From assembly GCF_004369205.1 (NCBI RefSeq), contig NZ_QFGA01000003.1, positions 248,001 to 312,000 on the forward strand: DNA of 64,000 nt, given 5' to 3'. Below are positions 1 to 43,596 of the stretch, one piece after another; positions within the stretch are counted from its first letter, which is position 1, and every line of letters begins with the position of its first letter. The stretch comes from Pelotomaculum schinkii. Lineage in GTDB: Bacteria; Bacillota; Desulfotomaculia; Desulfotomaculales; Pelotomaculaceae. The position numbers and the translations under genes were made by a program. Under the pieces are notes generated by a model, which saw only the letters and a program-made list of their open reading frames with translations, did no database searches and was not told where the DNA came from.

Positions 1-927
1 CTTTATGAAACATACGTGACCGCGCGTGGGCACTGGAGTAACTATGTGGAGGGTGTGCGGAACAAGCTTAGGACAATAACAACCGGAGGATTGGCAGCGC
101 TCACTTCCGAGAGCGATTTTACCCTCAGCGATATAGGCCGGGAAAAAACTGCGTTGTTCTGTGTTCTACCGACTGATGGGGACTACCGCATGTTGTTAAC
201 ACCTTTCTATGCTTTTTTGTTTAAGCGTTTAAAAGAACTTGCCGCGGCGAGTCCAAAGCAGCGATTGCCGGTACCAACGAGGGTTGTAGTGGAAGAGGCT
301 GCAAATGTGGGCAGAGTTCCATGGTTAGGAAAAACATTGGCTGTTGCGAGGAGTATGGCCATTGACATTCAATTGGCATTTCAAAATATAGGTCAAGTGC
401 AGGGATTATACTCCAAGGAGAAAGAGTGGCAAGCCATCGTGGGCAACTGCCCTGTAAAAGTGTGCCTCGGTTGCGACGATATGGACACTGCCACATGGTT
501 TGTAAGGCCTTTCGGAGATGTGCGGGTTTTAACAGAGTCATATAGCCGGGATGTGACGCTACCGTACCAGCATTACACAGAAATGCCCCGGCGCAGGGAA
601 AGTGTCCGGAAAGAGCGGTTGATGGAACCATGGGAACTGACGCAACTGCCGGAGGACGACATGGTTGCCACGGTCCGGGGGAAGAGGCCTCTGTATCTAC
701 AGAAGATTCCATGGACCGATCTTCCCCAATACAAGGAAGTGCTGGCGGCCGGCCAGCTACCGGTTCAGGAACTCATACCGGCTCGCTCCTTGAAAATTTC
801 CATGCCGGTGGTACCGGGAGGTCCTGGTGAACAAGGAGCTTTCGGTACCAATATGGGCCGTGGAGACAGAGAAAATACCGATGGAAGGGGACAGGTAGAT
901 GTAATGGGTCTCTTTAATCAGCCGTGA
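1..927 (+). CDS. Type IV coupling protein (VirD4/TraG-like), C-terminal part
   Basis: The reading frame is open to the window edge, so this is the C-terminal part of a longer protein; the GTG at 16 is only an internal codon. VirD4/TraG proteins are membrane-anchored hexameric ATPases that hand relaxase-bound DNA to the conjugation channel. A Walker-B-like segment (VVVEEAANVG) is followed by a Gln-rich helix (QNIGQVQGLYS), the order seen in the family's ATPase core. The N-terminal membrane helices and Walker A must lie upstream. Next to a replication initiator and a serine recombinase it marks the element as conjugative. Assignment rests on motif order, not on an alignment. Confidence 0.8.
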   Translation, partial: LYETYVTARGHWSNYVEGVRNKLRTITTGGLAALTSESDFTLSDIGREKTALFCVLPTDGDYRMLLTPFYAFLFKRLKELAAASPKQRLPVPTRVVVEEAANVGRVPWLGKTLAVARSMAIDIQLAFQNIGQVQGLYSKEKEWQAIVGNCPVKVCLGCDDMDTATWFVRPFGDVRVLTESYSRDVTLPYQHYTEMPRRRESVRKERLMEPWELTQLPEDDMVATVRGKRPLYLQKIPWTDLPQYKEVLAAGQLPVQELIPARSLKISMPVVPGGPGEQGAFGTNMGRGDRENTDGRGQVDVMGLFNQP

Positions 928-29702: not shown

Positions 29703-31616
29703 ATGAAGACAAAGAAGATACTCGTGGGGGCGCTGGCTGGCGCTCTCCTGTTTTTTGTCGCGCATTTCGCGTTCGCCGCGGGCCTGGCCGACGTGCAGAC
29801 GCCGCCGGCGGATGTCTTGAAAAAAGCCAACGATTTCGCTGCCCGCGTCAGCGGCTTACCATATGATTTCTTTATCGATACCAATGATAAAGGCGATTCC
29901 CTGCGCTACGGCGACCTGATCCTGCCCCACGAGGGCACGGTCAATTACCTGGCCTGGGGGCCGTGGCACAGCGACCCGAACTGGGACGGCGAGGGCGCGA
30001 CGAAGAAAGACCGGAACAATATCGAACGCGCGCGCTACGTCGGCTACGGTTACTACGGAGAGCAGATCTCCAACGTCTTTTTCCCGCCGGATCGTTCCGG
30101 TGGCTGGAAGTCTCTGAGCGACGCAGATTTCGTAGAGGAGCCGTGGTGGGATTCTTCTGTCAAGCAGGCTTTCCCGCAATTTTTCGGGCCAAGTGACCGT
30201 TTCGACGGCAAGACCGACCCCGACCTGATCAAGGCCATGCAGATTGGCCTGGACTATTGCGCCTGGGGCAACGAATTAGCGCCTCCGGACCCGGGCTCCG
30301 ACCTGTACCAGAACCCGCAGAATTACATCCATGTCTTTCTGCCTTGTTCGGAGCAAACTTTCGGCATGGGCGTGATGTTCCACCGCGACACGGACGGCTC
30401 CTTGTGGTACCGCTCGGTGCCTTTGACCGATCTTAACAGGACTAAGTTCACCCCGGACGACGCCATCTCTCTCGATCCGCCGGAACGCACCGGCAACCCC
30501 GGCGACTCGGCGGCCTTCAGCTTGAAAGTGAACTGGCAGGAAATAAAATCTCTCCAGGAGATAGCGGCTGATTACGGTTTTGACTTCGGCTTTTTGATCC
30601 AGGTATCCCACCAGGTGAACGGCAGCCCTAACGCAGCCGCCTTTACTATGGACGGCATGCAATCGCAGGACGCCGGGAACGGCTGGGCGCAGATAGACTA
30701 CACCGACCTCAGCGACGCTTCCAAAACGAGCAGTGTCTCGGTGCACGTCCAGGACGTTCCCAGCGAAGTGGTGGCTCAGATAGTGCCATACGTGAAAGAC
30801 AAGGAATCCGGCTACGTCTTTTTGTGGAGTGACTACTACCTGTACAAACAAGCCAAGGCGAAGGTGGCGCCGAACAACATATCCAAGCCGCCCGAGCAGC
30901 AGATAACCACCGGCAGCGGCCTGCACTTCCAGGCTATCAGCCAGAGGAACGCCGTTACGGGACAGGAAATCGACCCGCCCAGAGAGCCTGACACAGCAAA
31001 GTGGACGGACACCGTAACAGCCACATTAACGCCGCTAAGAGTGCAGAGCGTTGTGAATGTGGACGAAAGCGTCGACTACGGGACAACCGTAGCGCCGCCG
31101 CCCCCGCCGGGAGGAGGCTGCGCACCGGCCTATACCACCCTGGATAGTTGGAGACTGAACAGCGCAACGTTAACCTATCCGAAACAGAATCCGCATTATA
31201 CTTTCGGAGATCCGCGCCCGCCGATCGGAGTTGAACCTAATGACTCCGGCCAGCCGATCCCGCTCTCGTCGTCGCCTGAAGGGTTCGAGACAACAAGCAT
31301 GGCACCTGCATCCGACGGGCATGCGTTAGCTTGTCAATTCAAAGAGATGTGGGCTCAAAACGGTACGTACCTGCATGATATTTTGAACCCGTCGCTTGAT
31401 TCGTGGATACAGACGCCGCAAACTTATAAGTTGACTGCCTCAAATATTCAGGTGACGGTGGATTACACTGTGCATACGTTCCATATGGTTTGTGATCCGG
31501 ATGGTGGTTGCAGTTGCGAGGAGAATACCACTCCCGGTTCATATACCTATACGCTCAATCCGATTTCAGGCAACCTGCTGGTCAACGGCACTGGCGTGGC
31601 TTCGATAGGCATGTAA
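29703..31616 (+). CDS. Large secreted protein of unknown function, 637 aa
   Basis: Signal peptide in residues 1-25 (ILVGALAGALLFFVAHFAF, cut after AFA). The mature part is Trp/Tyr/Pro-rich with many short beta-type segments, a PPPPPGGG linker near residue 465 and paired Cys near the end (CDPDGGCSCEE). No LPXTG or transmembrane anchor is seen. It is co-transcribed with the stalk-domain protein, and I infer an extracellular structure or adhesion role. No homologous family recognised. High GC compared with the neighbouring regulators suggests a separate origin. Confidence 0.65.
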   Translation: MKTKKILVGALAGALLFFVAHFAFAAGLADVQTPPADVLKKANDFAARVSGLPYDFFIDTNDKGDSLRYGDLILPHEGTVNYLAWGPWHSDPNWDGEGATKKDRNNIERARYVGYGYYGEQISNVFFPPDRSGGWKSLSDADFVEEPWWDSSVKQAFPQFFGPSDRFDGKTDPDLIKAMQIGLDYCAWGNELAPPDPGSDLYQNPQNYIHVFLPCSEQTFGMGVMFHRDTDGSLWYRSVPLTDLNRTKFTPDDAISLDPPERTGNPGDSAAFSLKVNWQEIKSLQEIAADYGFDFGFLIQVSHQVNGSPNAAAFTMDGMQSQDAGNGWAQIDYTDLSDASKTSSVSVHVQDVPSEVVAQIVPYVKDKESGYVFLWSDYYLYKQAKAKVAPNNISKPPEQQITTGSGLHFQAISQRNAVTGQEIDPPREPDTAKWTDTVTATLTPLRVQSVVNVDESVDYGTTVAPPPPPGGGCAPAYTTLDSWRLNSATLTYPKQNPHYTFGDPRPPIGVEPNDSGQPIPLSSSPEGFETTSMAPASDGHALACQFKEMWAQNGTYLHDILNPSLDSWIQTPQTYKLTASNIQVTVDYTVHTFHMVCDPDGGCSCEENTTPGSYTYTLNPISGNLLVNGTGVASIGM

Positions 31617-33509: not shown

Positions 33510-33533
33510 AAAATATCGCATAAAGGAGATTTG

Positions 33534-34610
33534 ATGCTTGTTGATGGGAATTCCTTGTTGCACAGGTGTTTCCATGCTTTTCCCCCGATGAGTGCGCCTG
33601 ACGGTAGGCCAACAAATGCTGTCTTTGGAATGCTCCGGTTACTTGTAAATATTATAGATGCACGTAAGCCAACCCATCTAGCTGTTGCTTTCGATTTATC
33701 CCGTAATTCTTTTCGCAAAGAAGCATACCCGGAATACAAGGCAAATCGTAAGGAAACCGATCCGGATCTAGTACCGCAGTTTTCTATAATAAGAGAAGTA
33801 TTAAAAGCCTTGAACATTCCATACTTTGAAAAAGAGCTCTATGAGGCCGACGATATTATCGGTACCCTGGCTTGCCAGACTCAGGCTGACTACAAAGTAA
33901 AGATACTTACCGGAGATAGGGACTGTTTACAGTTAATCAACGAGAAAGTTTCCGTTCTTCTAACGATAACGGGAGTTTCCAAATTAGTAGAGTGTACCCC
34001 CGAAAGCACTGAGAAGAAACTCGGATTTAGGCACGATCAAGTCCTTAGCATGAAAGCTCTGGCCGGCGATCACTCCGATAACATTCCCGGTGTTAGGGGG
34101 GTAGGTGAAAAAACAGCCCTTTCCCTGCTAGATAAATACGGTACGATAGAAGGCGTTATAGCGTCGGCCTCAGAAATACCAGGTAAGCTGGGTGAAAAGG
34201 TTCGGACGAGCGTCGAAATGATTCGTTTGAGTCAACAGCTGGCAACAATTGTTTGTAATGTCTCCCTTGATGTGGAACCGGAATCTCTAAGACTGAGGAT
34301 TAACCGGAAAGCCGGTACCGAAATATTAGCTCGGCTTGGAATAAAATCAATTAACCTGGACGGATTAGTCTCACAGTCACCACAGGTATCAAAGCCAGCC
34401 AGGCCTACCATCCAACACAATGCGGGTCGTATAGTTATTCCGAGCACAGGAAGCCAACAGCGCTGCGGTATATGTGCAAGGCCGATACCATGCAGGCGTT
34501 TTGTTGAGCTTGGCGAACATGGGAAACTCGCATTTGGTGCAAAAATATTTTGGGCATGCCGTATTTGCTCGGCAGCTCTGAAACCGGACTGTTACAAAGA
34601 AATACCATAG
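33534..34610 (+). CDS. PolI-like 5'-3' exonuclease/flap endonuclease with Cys motif tail
   Basis: A 358-residue stand-alone version of the PolA N-terminal nuclease. MLVDGNSLLHRCFHAFPP with AVFGMLRLL, AFDLSRNSFRKEAYPEYKAN, YEADDIIGTLA and LTGDRDCLQL are the metal-binding and arch motifs. ALAGDHSDNIPGVRGVGEKT is the H3TH. No polymerase domain follows. Instead, the last 80 residues carry CGICARPIPC and CRICSAALKPDC, a likely zinc-binding module not usual in this family. ATG 33534 follows AAAGGAGA; a TTG at 33531 is too close. It probably processes flaps or primers during element replication or repair. Confidence 0.85.
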   Translation: MLVDGNSLLHRCFHAFPPMSAPDGRPTNAVFGMLRLLVNIIDARKPTHLAVAFDLSRNSFRKEAYPEYKANRKETDPDLVPQFSIIREVLKALNIPYFEKELYEADDIIGTLACQTQADYKVKILTGDRDCLQLINEKVSVLLTITGVSKLVECTPESTEKKLGFRHDQVLSMKALAGDHSDNIPGVRGVGEKTALSLLDKYGTIEGVIASASEIPGKLGEKVRTSVEMIRLSQQLATIVCNVSLDVEPESLRLRINRKAGTEILARLGIKSINLDGLVSQSPQVSKPARPTIQHNAGRIVIPSTGSQQRCGICARPIPCRRFVELGEHGKLAFGAKIFWACRICSAALKPDCYKEIP

Positions 34611-34634
34611 GAAATTAGGAATAGGAATGGTGAA

Positions 34635-34750
34635 CTACCCCTTCCTTCGCTCCGATCAGGAAGGGGTTTCCTGATCAGGCGAATTTGTGGGTTTCCTGCT
34701 TCATCGTGAGCCTACCGGCACAGCTATACAGGCGTAAACTCATGATCCAT
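34635..34750 (-). ncRNA. Orphan omega-RNA-like IS605/IS1341-type end
   Basis: On the minus strand the order is TTTACGCCTGTATAGCTGTG, CCGGTAGGCTCACGATGAAG, a hairpin CCCCTTCCT with AGGAAGGGG, then GTAGTTCAC. This is the look of the right end and guide RNA scaffold of TnpB-carrying elements, and the ACGCCTGTA core recurs beside the intact tnpB at 20560-20668. No tnpB is adjacent. Recognition from memory, not a covariance search. Confidence 0.45.
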
Positions 34751-34803
34751 AAAAAGGTTGGGTCTGAGAAGTGTAGCTTTCATAAAGGGGCTTAAAAATT
34801 TTT

Positions 34804-34829
34804 CCTTGGCGAGATGCCAAGGTTTTTCC
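34804..34829 (+). terminator. Intrinsic terminator
   Basis: CCTTGGC pairs with GCCAAGG around GAGAT, flanked by A and T runs on both sides, so it may act in both directions. Confidence 0.7.
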
Positions 34830-34857
34830 TTTGTATGACAAGTAGGATAAACCATAG

Positions 34858-34994
34858 AACGTGTAGAATTTTATGAAAGGAGACAACCACCATGGAAAGG
34901 TTAAAACAATCCCGGAAAGGTTATACTTCAAACCGGGAGGGGAAGGAGTTGAAACCTGAAGTGAGAGTTGTTTTTGGAGATAATTCTACACGTT
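34858..34994. repeat. 13-bp perfect inverted repeat around the small pre-recombinase gene
   Basis: AACGTGTAGAATT (34858-34870) is exactly inverted as AATTCTACACGTT (34982-34994). One copy lies in the leader, the other inside the 62-aa gene. Could be an operator pair or recombination accessory sites. Confidence 0.6.
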
Positions 34995-35080
34995 TACAAG
35001 ATGCATTTCGTCTACTGGCCGAGTTCTTTGAACAGGAAAAAGCTGAACAGGATTCAAAGGCTGGGGGTGGTAACCGTTGA
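34892..35080 (+). CDS. Small protein coupled to the serine recombinase, 62 aa
   Basis: ATG behind AAAGGAGAC. A basic N-terminus (ERLKQSRKGYTSNREGKEL) and an acidic helical C-terminus (DAFRLLAEFFEQEKAEQD). It overlaps the recombinase start by four bases, so the two are translationally coupled. The position suggests a regulator or directionality factor for integration/excision, but no family is recognised. Confidence 0.6.
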   Translation: MERLKQSRKGYTSNREGKELKPEVRVVFGDNSTRLQDAFRLLAEFFEQEKAEQDSKAGGGNR

Positions 35081-36630
35081 ATATTGCGGCTATCTACCTT
35101 CGTGTATCTACTGAAGACCAAGCACGACATGGCTATTCACTCGCTGACCAATTATCGGTTTGTCGGGAGAAAGCGTTTGCGATGGGGGCCGATGAGATTT
35201 TGGAGTTCGCCGATGAGGGTGTTTCCGGGGAACTCTTAGATAGGCCGGGTTTATCGGACTTGCGTGAGTCTATAAGAAACGGGCAGGTCAATATTATGAT
35301 CTGCTATGACCCTGACCGCCTATCTCGTAACCTGGCGCATCAGCTACTTTTAACAGATGAAATTGAAAGAGCTGGCGTCCGGCTGGATTTTGTTAATTTT
35401 GAATGGCAGAACACGCCAGACGGTAGACTTTTTTATGCTTTAAGAGGTGCAATCGCTGAATACGAAAAAGAAAAGATCCGGGAAAGAACTGTTAGGGGAA
35501 AAATGCAGAAAGCCCGTCAAGGTGGTCTGCCTGTCCGTGCTGATTCCTATGGTTATAAATTCGAAAAAGGAACATTACTGCTTAACCAGGAAGAGGCTGA
35601 AGTAGTCAAATTAATTTACAAGTGGTTTATATCAGAAGATATGGGGGTTAATGGTGTTGCAACCAGGCTTACCGAGCAATGTATCCCTACCAGAAAAGGC
35701 AATTCGATATGGCAACGGTGTGTAGTAAAAACCATACTTACCAATCCTATGTATGCCGGTACATTCTATTATAACCGGAGGGATTGTAAGGGGGTTGCTT
35801 ATAACAAACATCTACCTCTGGAGAAAAGGGTTAAGGCCAAAAGCAAACCAAAGGATGAATGGATATCCATACCAGTTCCTGCCATCGTTGATCTGGCAAC
35901 TTGGGAGAAAGCACAAGAAAAAATTAAATCAGCACGTAGGTTATGGTCGGGGTGGTCGCGAGAAGAATATCTTTTATCAGGGATAATCTCATGTACTGAC
36001 TGTGGCAATACGATGCACGGGGCCGTTAAAGTAAAATATAACGGAAATAAGGAACGTGGCTATACGTGCGTAAAGACAACAGCAGGTACTTCCAATAACG
36101 GATGTAAGCCAATTAAGCGAGTACCTGCTGAAATAATAGAAGTGATTGTTTGGGAACAAGTATGTACCTGGCTCAACGACCCTGATGCTCTTACCAGCGA
36201 GATTAGGGAGCGTACAACGGAGAAAGATTTACGAGCCGACTTGGAAAGGATAGAAAAACTCATCGCCGATGTTGAGAAGGGGAGAGACAATGTTAGGAAT
36301 GCTTTAGCAGCCGGGTTATTTGATCTTGATCCCAAAACTACGAAACTATTGCAAGGCCTTAAAGGACGTGAAAAGCAATTACTGACGCGTAAAAAAGAAT
36401 TGGAGATAGCTTTACATCGGAGCACGGCAGCAGAGATCAGGGTTAAGGAAATACGTAAACAAGCAGCTTCATTCCTGTCGAAATTGGATGCGCTCTCTTT
36501 TGATCAGAAAAAAGCTCTTTTGCGTACGCTTGTACAGCAGGTAACGATTTCAGGCCGGGGAGATAACTTACGGGTTACGGTACACGCAGCTTTTTTGCCA
36601 GAGGTAGAAGCGAAAACAAAAAAATTGTAA
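35077..36630 (+). CDS. Large serine recombinase (element integrase)
   Basis: A 517-residue protein with TTG start behind GGGGGTGG. The resolvase domain begins with IAAIYLRVSTEDQ (nucleophile Ser near residue 11), then DEGVSGELLDRPGL and YDPDRLSRN. The recombinase domain follows (ANPMYAG-like TNPMYAGTFYYN near residue 225). A zinc-ribbon domain (CTDCG ... C) near 305 and a coiled-coil C-terminus (residues 375-460) complete the large-serine-integrase layout. These enzymes integrate elements at a specific site without needing host factors. It ends 28 bases before the interrupted chromosomal gene, so it is at the right end of the ICE. Confidence 0.9.
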   Translation: MNIAAIYLRVSTEDQARHGYSLADQLSVCREKAFAMGADEILEFADEGVSGELLDRPGLSDLRESIRNGQVNIMICYDPDRLSRNLAHQLLLTDEIERAGVRLDFVNFEWQNTPDGRLFYALRGAIAEYEKEKIRERTVRGKMQKARQGGLPVRADSYGYKFEKGTLLLNQEEAEVVKLIYKWFISEDMGVNGVATRLTEQCIPTRKGNSIWQRCVVKTILTNPMYAGTFYYNRRDCKGVAYNKHLPLEKRVKAKSKPKDEWISIPVPAIVDLATWEKAQEKIKSARRLWSGWSREEYLLSGIISCTDCGNTMHGAVKVKYNGNKERGYTCVKTTAGTSNNGCKPIKRVPAEIIEVIVWEQVCTWLNDPDALTSEIRERTTEKDLRADLERIEKLIADVEKGRDNVRNALAAGLFDLDPKTTKLLQGLKGREKQLLTRKKELEIALHRSTAAEIRVKEIRKQAASFLSKLDALSFDQKKALLRTLVQQVTISGRGDNLRVTVHAAFLPEVEAKTKKL

Positions 36631-36660
36631 AATTATTGTAGTTACTTCTGTATGTAATGT
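36631..36660. other. Right boundary of the ICE (attR region)
   Basis: Between the recombinase stop and the first codons (GTG GGC AAC CTG) of the truncated chromosomal gene. The recombination core cannot be fixed because the left end is outside the window; a GTGGGCAACC-like core from the target gene is plausible. Confidence 0.5.
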
Positions 36661-38482
36661 GGGCAACCTGCAGCAGTACCAGGAGGCGCAGTACGATGCG
36701 CTGGCAGGAAAAGCCAGGATCAAAATACCGGGAACGGAAATTATGCCGCAGGTATGGGTGGAGGAGGGCGCCTCGATTGACCCCTCCGCGAAAATCAGAG
36801 GCCCGGCCCTGATCGGGGCTGATTGTCAGCTGGGGGCTGCAACCCGCATAGAACCTTTTTCGATCCTGGGGCAGGGCTGTCTGGTGCGGGAAAGGGCTTC
36901 GATCAAGAGAAGCGTCCTCTGGAACAATGTCTATGTAGGTCCCGGGGCTGCTTTACGCGGGGCTGTCCTAGGCAGCCGGGTCCAGGTGCTGGCCAAGGCA
37001 GGCATATACGAGGGGGCGGTTGTTGGTGACAATTCGATTATCCGTGAAAACGGCCTGCTCAAGCCTGACGTCAAGCTGTGGCCGCATAAGCTGGTTGAAA
37101 CAGGGGCGACCGTTCACCGCAGCTTGATCTGGGGTTCCTGTTCTCCCAAGAAAATCTTTGGTTTTGAGGGGATCTCCGGCCTGATCAATGTGGAGATTAC
37201 GCCTGAGTTCGCTGCCAGGATCGGCGCTGCCTTTGGCTCCGTAGCCGGAGCCGGGGCGCGTCTAGCCGTCAGCAGCGACAGTTACGCTGCTTCTGTAATG
37301 CTTAAGGAAGCCGCAAAAAGCGGGATGCAGTCGGTAGGGGCGCAAGTTTTGGACTTCGGTCCCGGCATTACGCCGGTGAGCCGCTTTGGTGTCAGGGAGA
37401 CGGGTTGCCGGGGGGGAATTCACGTCAGGATATCACCGCAGGCGCCCGACAAGGTGACCATGGTATTTACCAACCCCCACGGTGGGAATATTTCCAGGGA
37501 CCAGGAGCGCAAGATCGAAAACGCCATGGCCAGAGAGGACTTTTTGCGGGCGGAAACAGGCAGGATCAAGCCGCCGGAGGTCCTGACGCAAGTTGCGGAC
37601 AGCTATCTTTCAGCCATATGTGCGGGTTTAAGCGCACTCAGGCTGCGGGAAGCCAATTTTAAACTGCTGCTCTGCTATGACCAGGTCAATCTGGAAAATA
37701 TCGTTGGGAACCTTTGCGCCAGGCTGGGGTTAGGCTTGGAAAGCATCGGCCTGGAAAGCGACGCAAAGGCATACCGTGGCTGGCGTTCTCACCAGGAGCT
37801 GCTGCCCGCCCTGTCCCGGGCGGTCGTTGACGGCGGCGCCGACGCCGGAGCCGTCCTGGACTCCAACGCCGACCGCCTGATCCTGATCGACAACAAGGGG
37901 CAGGTAATTCAGGATGAACTTCTGACAGCCCTGCTCTCTTTGATTATCCTGAAGGGGGAGGAAGGCCCGGTGGTGGTGCCGGTTACGGCCCCGCGCGCCA
38001 TAGAAGCGCTGGCCGAGCGCTACCGGAGCAGGGTGGTGCGCACCAAAACCGCCATGCAGGATTTCCTGGATAAAGTACTGGCTCCGGAGAACGGGATAGA
38101 AGGGATATCCCAGTTTTTCCTCCACTTTGACGGGTTGGCAGCCCTGGCCAGGGTGCTCGACCACGCAGCCCGTTTCAATACCTCGATATCCGATCTGGTG
38201 GCCGAAATACCTGAATTTTTCATGGACCGGCGGGAGGCCCCCGTCCCCTGGGAGGCCAAGGGCAGGGTCATCAGGCAGCTGATTCAGGATCCCCCGGCCA
38301 GCCGGCTGGAACTGCTGGACGGGGTCAAGGTCTACCACGAGGACGGCTGGGCGCTGGTGCTGCCGGACCCGGACGAGCCCTTCTGCCGGGTCTTCAGCGA
38401 AGGCAGCACCATGGAAATCGCCGAGTCGCTAACCGATATGTACATCAAAAAAATTAACGATATCGCGGGTATTGTGAGTTAG
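36659..38482 (+). pseudogene. Mannose-1-P guanylyltransferase/phosphomannomutase-like gene, 5'-truncated by ICE insertion
   Basis: The frame starts with VGNLQQYQEAQYDAL, the junction segment that in intact proteins follows a nucleotidyltransferase domain ending in a YWCDVGNL-like motif; that domain is absent here. Residues about 15-150 are left-handed beta-helix hexapeptide repeats (IGADCQLGAATRIEPFSILG, VLWNNVYVGPGAAL). From about 175 on follows a phosphomannomutase-like domain (SSDSYAASVMLKEAAKSG, DSNADRLILID). The mutase active-site Ser-His motif is replaced by GIHVRISPQAPDK, so this domain is degenerate as in many such fusions. No proper start codon context exists. The missing 5' part should lie left of the ICE. 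Confidence 0.8.
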
Positions 38483-38492
38483 TGTAATCATT

Positions 38493-38665
38493 GGGGTCAG
38501 GCTTGAATTATTCACTTATTTTTTTCCGAATCACATCTTCTACATAAGATGTGTCCTTATACCTACCGGACTTTATTTTTGATAACAAGGATACACGGTT
38601 TTTGGCCATATCAATTACCTGGATGATTATGGCATTTAATAAGTAAATATTTCAAGTCTGACCCC
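38493..38665. repeat. MITE-like element, copy 1 (173 bp)
   Basis: Ends form a 28-bp imperfect terminal inverted repeat: GGGGTCAGGCTTGAATTATT with its partner AATATTTCAAGTCTGACCCC. No coding capacity. The same element occurs at 39360-39533 in the same orientation. The end sequence resembles those around RAYT/IS200-like transposases in related genomes (recalled, unchecked). Confidence 0.75.
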
Positions 38666-39340: not shown

Positions 39341-39359
39341 GCTAAACAACCTCCTCATT

Positions 39360-39533
39360 GGGGTTAGGCTTGAATTATTCACTTATTTCTTTCCGAGGAA
39401 CATCTTCTATATAAGCTGTGCCCTTATACCTATCTGACTTTATTTTTGATTGTATGGATACACGGTGTTTGGTCATATCAAATACCTGGATAATTATAGC
39501 ATTTAATAAGTAAATATTTCAAGTCTGACACCC
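39360..39533. repeat. MITE-like element, copy 2 (174 bp)
   Basis: GGGGTTAGGCTTGAATTATT at one end and AATATTTCAAGTCTGACACC at the other, about 80 to 85 percent like copy 1 by eye. It covers the region just upstream of the secreted-protein gene. Confidence 0.7.
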
Positions 39534-40898: not shown

Positions 40899-42509
40899 TC
40901 ACACTGCCACAGACCTGGCCGGCTCGTTCCGGTACCAGCTGTAGTCCACATCGGGGAAAATATTGTCGCGGTATTCCAGGTCTCTGAGCCAGCCCTCATC
41001 AATACGGTTGCCTGTGATTTCGTCCCGGAGGCGGAGAAAGTTGCTGAGATGGATCTTGGTCCTTTTTATTGCGTATTCAACCATGGTGCCGGTGCTCATA
41101 ATGAAGGCCCAGTCGCTGCTCTGCGCCAGCATCAACTCGCGCGCCGCCTGGTTTAAGGCCCGCCTGAGCAGCCCTCCGGCAGCGGGGTAGCGGGTGGTCA
41201 TATCTACCATCATATTGGCAGCCATGTGCAGGTGCCTGTAAATCCATGCATTGGCGCCGGAAAGCCAGACCTCGTGGTAGCCTTTGTTGCCCCAGCTGGA
41301 CGAGCAGGGCACGGCCACCTGGTTGCAAGGGAAGCGTTCCAGGTACTGGCTTGGCGTTAGCAGCTCGATTTCATCCTGGTCAAAAGCAATTTTACGGATC
41401 AGGTATTCCAGCCAGGCCGGCCCTTCAAACCACCAGTGGCCAAAGAGTTCGGCGTCATAGGGCGCGACGATCATCGGCGGCCGGTCCATCATGCCGGCCA
41501 GGTGGCGAATTTGGTGCTGGCGGTTGAACATAAAATTGCCGGCGTGCTCGGCGGCTTTTTCATCCGCCGCTCTTGGATTGTAGGGCTCTTTTTGGCTTAA
41601 GTCCACTTTCCCGGTGATTTTAAAATATTTGAAGCCCGTATGGATGCGGATCCCGTCCGGATGGATGTAGGGCTTGATATAGTCATAGTCCAGGTCGTAG
41701 CCTATATCCCGGTAAAATTCACGGTAATTATAATCGCCGGGATAACCCTCCTGCGTACTCCAGACCTGCTTGGACGATTCAATATCCCGGCCGAAGGCGG
41801 CTACCCCTGACGGGCAGTAAATTGGAGCAAATATCCCAAAGCGGGGCCTGTGCGAGGCATAAAGCACACCATGCGAGTCGGTAAAGAAAAATTGAATTCC
41901 GTTCTCCTTTAAAATCTCATCGACTCCAGGGGCATAGCCGCATTCCGGCAGCCATATGCCGCGCGGCGGCCGGCCCAAGTGCCGGGTGTGAAGATCCACG
42001 GCCGTCCTGATTTGCGCCCGCACTGCTTCAGGCTGAAGCTGCATCAAGGGCAGGTAGGCGTGCGTAGCGGCGCAGGTAATAATTTCGAGACGGCCCTGGT
42101 CCTGGAACTTCTTAAAAGCTGAGACAATATTGCGGTGATAAAGGTCATGAAATATATACATGGCTTCCCGCAGCCTTCTCTTGTACATTAACGCGGCTTC
42201 ATGAAAAGGACTGCCGTAGGTCCGTCCTTCCTCTTTGTCCGCCAGCTCAATCAAGCCGGCAAGATGGCGGGTATAGCGCTCCTGCAGCAGCGGGTCGGTA
42301 AGCATGGAAATCAAGGGAGGAGACAGGGTCATGGTCAACCTGAAACTGATACCGTCGCCAATCAGACGGTCAAAAGCCTGGATGAGCGGTATATATGTTT
42401 CGGTGATAGCCTCGTAGAGCCATCTTTCCTCCAAAAAGTTCTCATGCTCCGGGTGTCTTACATAAGGCAGATGCGCATGGAGTACAAGACATAGATAACC
42501 TGTTGCCAT
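40899..42509 (-). CDS. GH57 1,4-alpha-glucan branching enzyme-like protein
   Basis: A 536-residue protein. The ATG at 42509 follows AAAGGGGTTG; an upstream frame extension of two residues is ignored. GH57 motifs in order: HAHLPYVRHPE (motif 1), GIWLPECGY with the nucleophile Glu (motif 3), APYDAELFGHWWFEGP with the acid/base Asp (motif 4), and a C-terminal DUF1957 helical domain (SDWAFIMSTGTM). Such enzymes introduce alpha-1,6 branches into glycogen-like glucans. The upstream DUF4912 gene on the same strand often accompanies it. Confidence 0.9.
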   Translation of the reverse strand: MATGYLCLVLHAHLPYVRHPEHENFLEERWLYEAITETYIPLIQAFDRLIGDGISFRLTMTLSPPLISMLTDPLLQERYTRHLAGLIELADKEEGRTYGSPFHEAALMYKRRLREAMYIFHDLYHRNIVSAFKKFQDQGRLEIITCAATHAYLPLMQLQPEAVRAQIRTAVDLHTRHLGRPPRGIWLPECGYAPGVDEILKENGIQFFFTDSHGVLYASHRPRFGIFAPIYCPSGVAAFGRDIESSKQVWSTQEGYPGDYNYREFYRDIGYDLDYDYIKPYIHPDGIRIHTGFKYFKITGKVDLSQKEPYNPRAADEKAAEHAGNFMFNRQHQIRHLAGMMDRPPMIVAPYDAELFGHWWFEGPAWLEYLIRKIAFDQDEIELLTPSQYLERFPCNQVAVPCSSSWGNKGYHEVWLSGANAWIYRHLHMAANMMVDMTTRYPAAGGLLRRALNQAARELMLAQSSDWAFIMSTGTMVEYAIKRTKIHLSNFLRLRDEITGNRIDEGWLRDLEYRDNIFPDVDYSWYRNEPARSVAV

Positions 42510-42553
42510 AAGCAACCCCTTTCATATGTTGTATAATAAAAATAATCGCCGGC

Positions 42554-42575: not shown

Positions 42576-43331
42576 TCAGTTTAGGCTCTGCTTATCACTT
42601 CCGGGATGCCAGTTCCCGGGCGAACTAATCCCCACCGGCAGTTTGCGGGCTTCCAGGGCCAGTTCCTCAATGAGCATCGGTGAACTGACACCATACTGAA
42701 ATTTACCAAGCGTGCGATATAAGCTTTCGATCCACATCCACTCCTCGTCCAGCCGGTCGGATAGCGAGGCCCTGGGAGTGGTCGCTATATTGGACCTGAG
42801 CAGGGTAATAAAACGGCCGTCCTGGAACATGCGTCCCAGGTCGATACAGAAGGAACGGTCCGGCTCCTTTACTTCAATATGCCAGTTATCGATTTCATCA
42901 CCAAGGTGAATATCCATGAATCCTTTAGCGTTATTCCCGTTAAAGTCAACACCGGTTACATCGTAAACCCTTAAAACAGGATGAGTGGAGGACCAGGCTT
43001 CGGGTCCGTAGGTTCTGGTGAATTCATCCTGCTTGGTGGCGGTGATTTCCCAGTAGGCATAAAGCCAGTGGGGGTCCCGGGCCATCAAGACCAGGCGGTC
43101 AACCCCGTAACTGTGCGGCAGTTGGGGTTCCGGCAAATGCTGTGCCCGATGTTCAGGAGCGGCCGGCACGGGCAGGCTGAACTCTTCAGCTATCTCTTCC
43201 ACGAATTGAGGGGGGGGGAGGGTTTCAGCTCCAATTTTTTTGGCCGTCCGCCTGCGCAGTGACGGCCATAAAAAAACGCCTACCGCAAAAACCATAATGA
43301 ATGCTAAAATCAACCAGAGAAAAATATTCAC
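42576..43331 (-). CDS. DUF4912 membrane-anchored protein
   Basis: About 251 residues; GTG 43331 behind GGGAGG is the best start. An N-terminal membrane helix (FLWLILAFIMVFAVGVFLW) is followed by a basic, Pro-rich linker. The DUF4912 domain comes next (DRLVLMARDPHWLYAYWEIT, VLRVYDVTGV, RSFCIDLGRMFQDGRF). The domain has a carbohydrate-binding-like beta sandwich character and is commonly found next to glycogen-related GH57 enzymes. It stands 66 bases upstream of the branching enzyme and is probably co-transcribed with it. Confidence 0.8.
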   Translation of the reverse strand: MNIFLWLILAFIMVFAVGVFLWPSLRRRTAKKIGAETLPPPQFVEEIAEEFSLPVPAAPEHRAQHLPEPQLPHSYGVDRLVLMARDPHWLYAYWEITATKQDEFTRTYGPEAWSSTHPVLRVYDVTGVDFNGNNAKGFMDIHLGDEIDNWHIEVKEPDRSFCIDLGRMFQDGRFITLLRSNIATTPRASLSDRLDEEWMWIESLYRTLGKFQYGVSSPMLIEELALEARKLPVGISSPGNWHPGSDKQSLN

Positions 43332-43596
43332 GGTGATCAGATCCTCCCTTCGAAGGTAAAATATTAACACATATTAAACCGGTGAAATTTATCTATCACA
43401 AATACTTTTTTTATTATTGCCCAGACTAAAAATGTTTATTTACTTAAAAAATCAAGCGCTCAGAAAAAATGAAGTAATTCACTAAACATAAAACCTCAGA
43501 AGGGATAGGGCCGGGTTGCAGCGAAAATCAACTTGATTAAGATGAATTTTATTGAAATAATAAACCTGCGGTGTCAAAAGGTGGCTTATAAAAAAC

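Follow-up and report, generated by a model that had tools for sequence, protein, structure and literature searches.

Most of the known sporulation-linked gene-splitting elements are prophages. Recombination in the serine recombinase family is conservative and takes place over two bases, and both the insertion of serine-recombinase elements into genes and the sporulation-timed restoration of genes are already known. The directionality factor of the C. difficile skin element is a 72-aa protein (PMC5025042). SPbeta, a 134-kb active prophage in spsM, is excised specifically in the mother cell with the directionality factor SprB (PMC4191935). In the B. subtilis group, phi3T lies in kamA, which is restored in a sporulation-timed manner, and in the laboratory prophages and an ICE can exchange their integration units (PMC6957869). 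The gin element in gerE of B. cereus ATCC10987 is 28.6 kb long, has three recombinases, and has been demonstrated to excise (PMC5595907).

The DNA analyzed here (the window, the whole stretch of 64,000 nucleotides at C3:248001-312000) comes from a host genome of 4.4 Mb in 8 contigs (G000). A large serine recombinase of 517 aa is encoded at positions 35077 to 36630 on the plus strand; it combines Resolvase, Recombinase and zinc-ribbon (Zn_ribbon_recom) domains with a length of ~500 aa, and its gene adjoins an att site. The first-pass annotation had claimed that this gene abuts VGNLQQYQEA and that an ICE had thereby left a headless mutase-like protein. Both points hold: the recombinase ORF ends at 36630, and a 607-aa open frame (VGNLQQYQEA...) starts 28 bp past it, at 36659. 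This 3' part of a split ManC/PMM-type gene (36664 to 38482, plus strand) encodes LbH/hexapeptide repeats and PGM/PMM domains I-II, and the nucleotidyltransferase domain is absent. A search of the host's own genome for the NTP_transferase family located the 5' part outside the window at C3:177702-178357, on the same contig and strand and 106.3 kb leftward. It is a 237-aa ORF with an NTP_transferase domain that ends shortly after GYWCDVG with an unrelated tail.

At the left junction the sequence is TGGTGCGACGTGGG/AACTTTAAAAAC, at the right one TATGTAATGTGGG/CAACCTGCAGC. GTGGG is common to both halves, and fusion there yields a single in-frame protein of 824 aa, so that precise excision of the element that splits the gene would restore the reading frame. 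The insert spans 106,306 bp (C3:178358-284663), of which the right-hand 36.7 kb occupies positions 1 to 36663 of the window. Comparison with attL and with the sites of two other genomes (G012 and G054) placed attR at 36637 to 36663 (plus strand), where the element arm (TAGTTACTTCTGTATGTAAT) is followed by GTGGG. The crossover GG of the Gly codon is at 36662-36663, and attL is at C3:178357.

The gene was present in 103 of the 113 genomes searched from the host's GTDB order. By a hand count of rows, 91 of these matches were essentially full-length, 3 were split exactly here and 9 were otherwise partial, the last mostly at contig ends, in assemblies of low completeness or with a frameshift. Homologues therefore do not begin at this point, and a natural separate mutase gene was ruled out by the intact full-length homologues. 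The site was uninterrupted in both congeneric genomes inspected as empty sites, G001 and G002. The G001 gene shows 90% identity along all 824 aa; that of G002 reaches 95% across residues 1-692 and has a frameshift beyond them. The site residues W-C-D-[IV]-G-N-L-Q-Q-Y are nearly invariant across homologues, which makes attB strongly conserved coding DNA.

In two other genomes the gene is split at the same Gly codon. One, which we take to be Pelotomaculum thermopropionicum SI (G012), has a genome of 3,025,375 bp in which the gene halves lie ~270 kb apart; the other is the MAG UBA3572 (G054, contig DFNH01000024.1), with an insert of 9.3 kb. In both, a related recombinase adjoins the 3' half in the same orientation (75% and 55% identical, respectively, to that of G000), and the 5' half ends in a different unrelated tail in each split genome. 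An assembly artefact or a misjoin of contigs was considered as the source of the split and rejected as having virtually no chance of being correct. Nothing spoke in its favor, and the two G000 junctions lie on one contig, as do those of G054, and G012 is a single contig. The earlier claim that the insertion lies inside a coding gene is thereby confirmed.

Where the strands cross over, all att sites have nothing in common but the two G of the Gly codon. GTGGG stands at both ends of the G000 element, and the arms of its rebuilt attP (TAGTTACTT...GTGGG...AAGGTAACTA) form an imperfect inverted repeat with GYTAYNTYTG half-sites, as do those of the other rebuilt attP sites. This 10-mer, which was defined after the fact, occurs in 6/6 element arms, each time about equally far from the core; the whole 106-kb insert has 9 occurrences, both strands counted. 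One arm contains TACTTCTGTATGTAA in both G000 and G012, and the opposite arm contains TAAAAACAAAG in both. The rebuilt attB, the empty sites and the recurrence at one codon strongly support the predicted mechanism of site-specific integration.

Most proteins of the G000 element were without a match in the G012 insert. The two elements share a region near VirD4 whose proteins are ~35-60% identical, compared with 75% for the recombinase; the identity of the VirD4-like proteins is 40%. Such differing cargo beside matching att arms fits separate arrivals of elements that have an integration module in common. Vertical inheritance of one old insertion is unlikely, because the near relatives are empty and most of the cargo is unmatched in G012. 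By eye, the G012 insert (C1:2350-2619 kb) resembles an accreted island, full of transposases and accessory metabolic genes that include a glycyl-radical-like enzyme, acyl-CoA dehydrogenases and ABC transporters. It contains no credible tRNA gene, and housekeeping genes were likewise not obvious by eye. Conjugation genes are not recognizable in the G054 insert, whose recombinase and att sites are intact.

Profile matches in the G000 insert identified a VirB4-type ATPase (AAA_10, 2.6e-41), a VirD4-type coupling protein (T4SS-DNA_transf, 4.7e-12) and a VirB11/T2SSE-type ATPase. The VirD4/TraG-type protein starts at C3:247008, where its upstream part carries the Pfam match, and its C-terminal part enters the window at 16 to 927 (plus strand). 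ParA-like, lytic-transglycosylase/M23-like and pilin-like genes were noted by inspection. No relaxase was recognized by ORF inspection or among the few proteins scanned with profiles. The designation ICE, as first proposed, was thus backed by the conjugation ATPases and not by a relaxase; it is a reasonable name, given the VirB4- and VirD4-like ATPases from which conjugation would be predicted. No tRNA gene was found in the window, which argues against tRNA attachment, and Rfam gave no matches there.

Several other features of the insert were observed. A type IV pilus/Tad-like gene run, unusual as ICE cargo, lies beside the conjugation genes at C3:201993-232653 and comprises several T2SSE-type ATPases, a prepilin peptidase, two similar pilins and PilC- and PilT-like genes (one ATPase identified by profile, the remainder by eye). 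A large secreted protein with no Pfam match is encoded in two closely similar copies, at 29703-31616 of the window and at C3:212263, whose first ~80 aa are nearly identical. Near the recombinase end, 33531-34610 encodes a stand-alone 5'-3' exonuclease corresponding to the PolA N-terminal domain without the polymerase. A stretch of ~76 bp at 34630-34705, ahead of the 62-aa ORF described below, is repeated in inverted orientation, at 90% identity, at C3:189263-189339 toward the left end of the element.

We consider it highly probable that a ~106-kb ICE entered the chromosome by serine-recombinase attP x attB recombination and that its excision would rebuild the gene. The attB would be the conserved ManC/PMM-type stretch (the W-C-D-V-G-N-L-Q-Q-Y codons), in which strands would be exchanged at the Gly codon's GG, and residue 222 would be the last before the cut. 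As exchange by serine recombinases is conservative and two-base, codons 1-222 would be parted from the rest without loss, and excision by the same recombinase would rebuild the gene exactly. The 5' half would keep its upstream glycosyltransferase neighbor, and presumably its promoter, and its product would be a shortened nucleotidyltransferase that ends in 15 foreign residues. For the 3' half, no visible start would remain: no ribosome-binding site (Shine-Dalgarno) was visible for it at the junction, and a pattern scan found no sigma-70-type promoter on its strand near the junction (in 34600-36900, the counts of sigma-70 and terminator patterns were at chance level). For these reasons the 3' half is probably silent, and loss of gene function while the element is integrated is likely. 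Some activity may remain in the truncated 5' product, since it still matches nearly the whole NTP_transferase model.

A permanent fission, in which the halves work separately as a nucleotidyltransferase and a mutase, would make the insertion neutral and excision irrelevant. It would agree with the position of the break, between the nucleotidyltransferase and LbH/mutase domains, and with the fact that both halves stay open. However, the missing translation and sigma-70-type signals of the 3' half speak against it, as do the unrelated 5'-half tails of each genome and the loss of the part beyond the D-[IV]-G motif, and we regard it as improbable.

The gene order at the locus (a GT4 glycogen-synthase-like gene, the split gene, a GH57 1,4-alpha-glucan branching enzyme gene at 40899 to 42515 and a DUF4912 gene at 42576 to 43370, the latter two on the minus strand of the host flank) points to a putative role in alpha-glucan metabolism for the nucleotidyltransferase/mutase fusion. 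Both downstream genes are neighbors of the split gene in G054 as well. Two similar intergenic stretches, 38490-38660 and 39350-39500 (with aggcttgaattattcacttatt...), lie on either side of the next gene after the split one and are possibly a small insertion or repeat unit.

Many of the order's closest recombinases adjoin sigK halves and are thus skin recombinases. In the recombinase tree, the three manC-site sequences grouped together (96/74) and then with a sequence from G031 at a ligD site (95/97), and this clade fell within a group holding 16 of the sigK-site recombinases (99/98). The comparison set consisted of sigK-site recombinases from this order and nearby groups, without B. subtilis SpoIVCA, and the target sites of the related recombinases L047-L050, L104 and L118 lie outside the assigned set. 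As judged by this tree, the integration module belongs to the sigK-skin module family. The likeness to sporulation-gene splitting suggested at first pass therefore extends to the recombinase, whose nearest relatives with known sites mostly split sigK; the target is a carbohydrate gene of a general kind. In this order and nearby groups, skin-type recombinases split sigK in many genomes (L061-L068, L077-L089, L102-L127 and L180-L186), in two arrangements: the recombinase gene is either convergent with the N-terminal half or codirectional with the C-terminal half. P. thermopropionicum carries both a sigK skin-type element and the manC-site element.

In G031, an element splits a gene for a LigD primase-polymerase (L200 on C54, L201 on C73). 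Of the ligD-Pol profile, the piece next to the recombinase gene covers positions 82-254, and a piece on another contig covers positions 1-92. The pieces (...ANQACIEMHA and ...ACIEVHAWLSTRD) overlap at the junction and therefore could join in frame; by its split halves, ligD-Pol is a second non-sigK target of the same module.

A 62-aa ORF with no Pfam match (34892 to 35080, plus strand) overlaps the start of the recombinase gene. It is kept in the three manC-site elements and, weakly, before skin recombinases: the three manC-site elements, the ligD element and many skin elements all have an ORF of ~50-65 aa that lies just ahead of the recombinase start or overlaps it, with a weakly conserved pattern, V-x-V-V-Y...A-Y-R-L-L-A. 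Given that the skin directionality factor of C. difficile is a protein of 72 aa, we infer that this ORF is a fair candidate for a recombination directionality factor or another partner of the recombinase. Unlike the C. difficile factor, it is coupled to the recombinase gene. No other gene for a directionality factor was located. Excision would be carried out by the recombinase, probably with a directionality factor, for which this neighboring ORF is our candidate.

Since the integration module appears to be of the sigK-skin family, we propose that the gene would be inactive in the majority of cells and restored only in those that the element leaves, a minority; such departure would necessarily accompany transfer and possibly also occurs in the sporulating mother cell. 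Our high confidence in the structure and mechanism does not compete with the two readings that follow, which divide the question of regulation between them. The more probable is that the element is a plain parasitic ICE that uses a conserved stretch as attB and excises rarely, for transfer, from a gene that is dispensable, with no regulatory role. The carrier is a conjugative-type element, and the empty near relatives and differing cargo fit repeated arrival. The gene may indeed be dispensable, because it was unmatched in 10/113 genomes, 5 of which are among the 80 best assemblies. However, this reading alone does not explain the small G054 element that has retained an intact recombination module.

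The second reading, which we hold only tentatively and as clearly the less likely of the two, is a developmental switch: excision would be turned on in the sporulating mother cell, as for skin/sigK and SPbeta/spsM, and the gene would work only then. The recombinase is nested among sigK-site recombinases and is closest to the ligD-Pol splitter, the cassette of small ORF and recombinase gene is common with skin elements, and the 9.3-kb G054 element has an intact recombinase and att sites, as for domesticated skin. The host encodes SpoIIID, a spore-former marker, and an intact sigK, and by this gene content it is a spore former. Precedents are the polysaccharide gene spsM (PMC4191935), kamA (PMC6957869) and the nonphage gin (PMC5595907). 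However, a crude pattern scan revealed no sigE-, sigK- or sigG-type promoter upstream of the operon or the recombinase; the only sporulation-type pattern match upstream of the G000 recombinase was sigH-like. Nor is the target gene sporulation specific, as it occurs in 103/113 genomes of the order, and non-endospore-formers, Streptomyces among them, have relatives at ~31% identity.

Sequence decay did not separate these readings. Both gene halves are intact in all three split genomes, and dN/dS was 0.06-0.20 when G000 was one of the pair and 0.08-0.17 between G054 and G030, which matches the intact pairs (0.03-0.21) or exceeds them only a little. Relaxed selection on the split gene was not seen by dN/dS, which has little power in G000, where the branch since the near relative carries 16 synonymous and 6 nonsynonymous changes. 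With so few changes, maintained function and recent insertion are indistinguishable in G000, and the insertion there can be recent. The absence of decay in all three genes is not explained by a parasite alone, although recent insertion could account for it, a point that also counts against a switch. On balance, we favor an ICE that carries a skin-type integration module, and sporulation-timed restoration of the gene would be plausible. Somewhat more doubtful still is the full version, in which a conjugative element with a skin module would reversibly switch a sugar-nucleotide (alpha-glucan) gene during development, the gene having become switchable in three lineages. If true, the element would be mobile DNA and a timed on-switch at once.

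Our literature search, in which few subscription journals were covered, found no report of this split target gene and, within the same scope, none of a natural conjugative element with a skin-type module. The locus would thus present a natural conjugative-type element with a skin-type module and a new target gene in three lineages, with inserts of 9, 106 and ~270 kb. Since a full-size and a shrunken element occupy the same codon, the question of how a mobile element becomes a developmental switch can be tested by comparison. The small ORF common to sigK- and manC-site modules offers a concrete directionality-factor candidate in this order.

The locus resembles the skin elements in sigK of B. 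subtilis and C. difficile (PMC5025042) in having the recombinase gene at the end of the insert and a gene restorable in frame, and in the tree its recombinase falls among those found at sigK sites in the same order. It differs in that skin is a defective prophage in a sigma factor gene, whereas the predicted carrier here is a conjugative-type element in a sugar-nucleotide gene. Like gin in gerE, it is a gene-intervening element that is not a prophage; gin, in contrast, targets a sporulation transcription factor, has three recombinases and was demonstrated to excise. As with phi3T in kamA, a serine-recombinase element splits a metabolic-type gene, but phi3T is a phage and natural carriage by an ICE is not the case there. 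SPbeta in spsM is likewise a large element with a large serine recombinase in a polysaccharide-synthesis gene, and its precise excision restores spsM. The timing of that excision and the role of SprB were demonstrated, whereas in the present element excision is predicted and the 62-aa ORF is a candidate factor.
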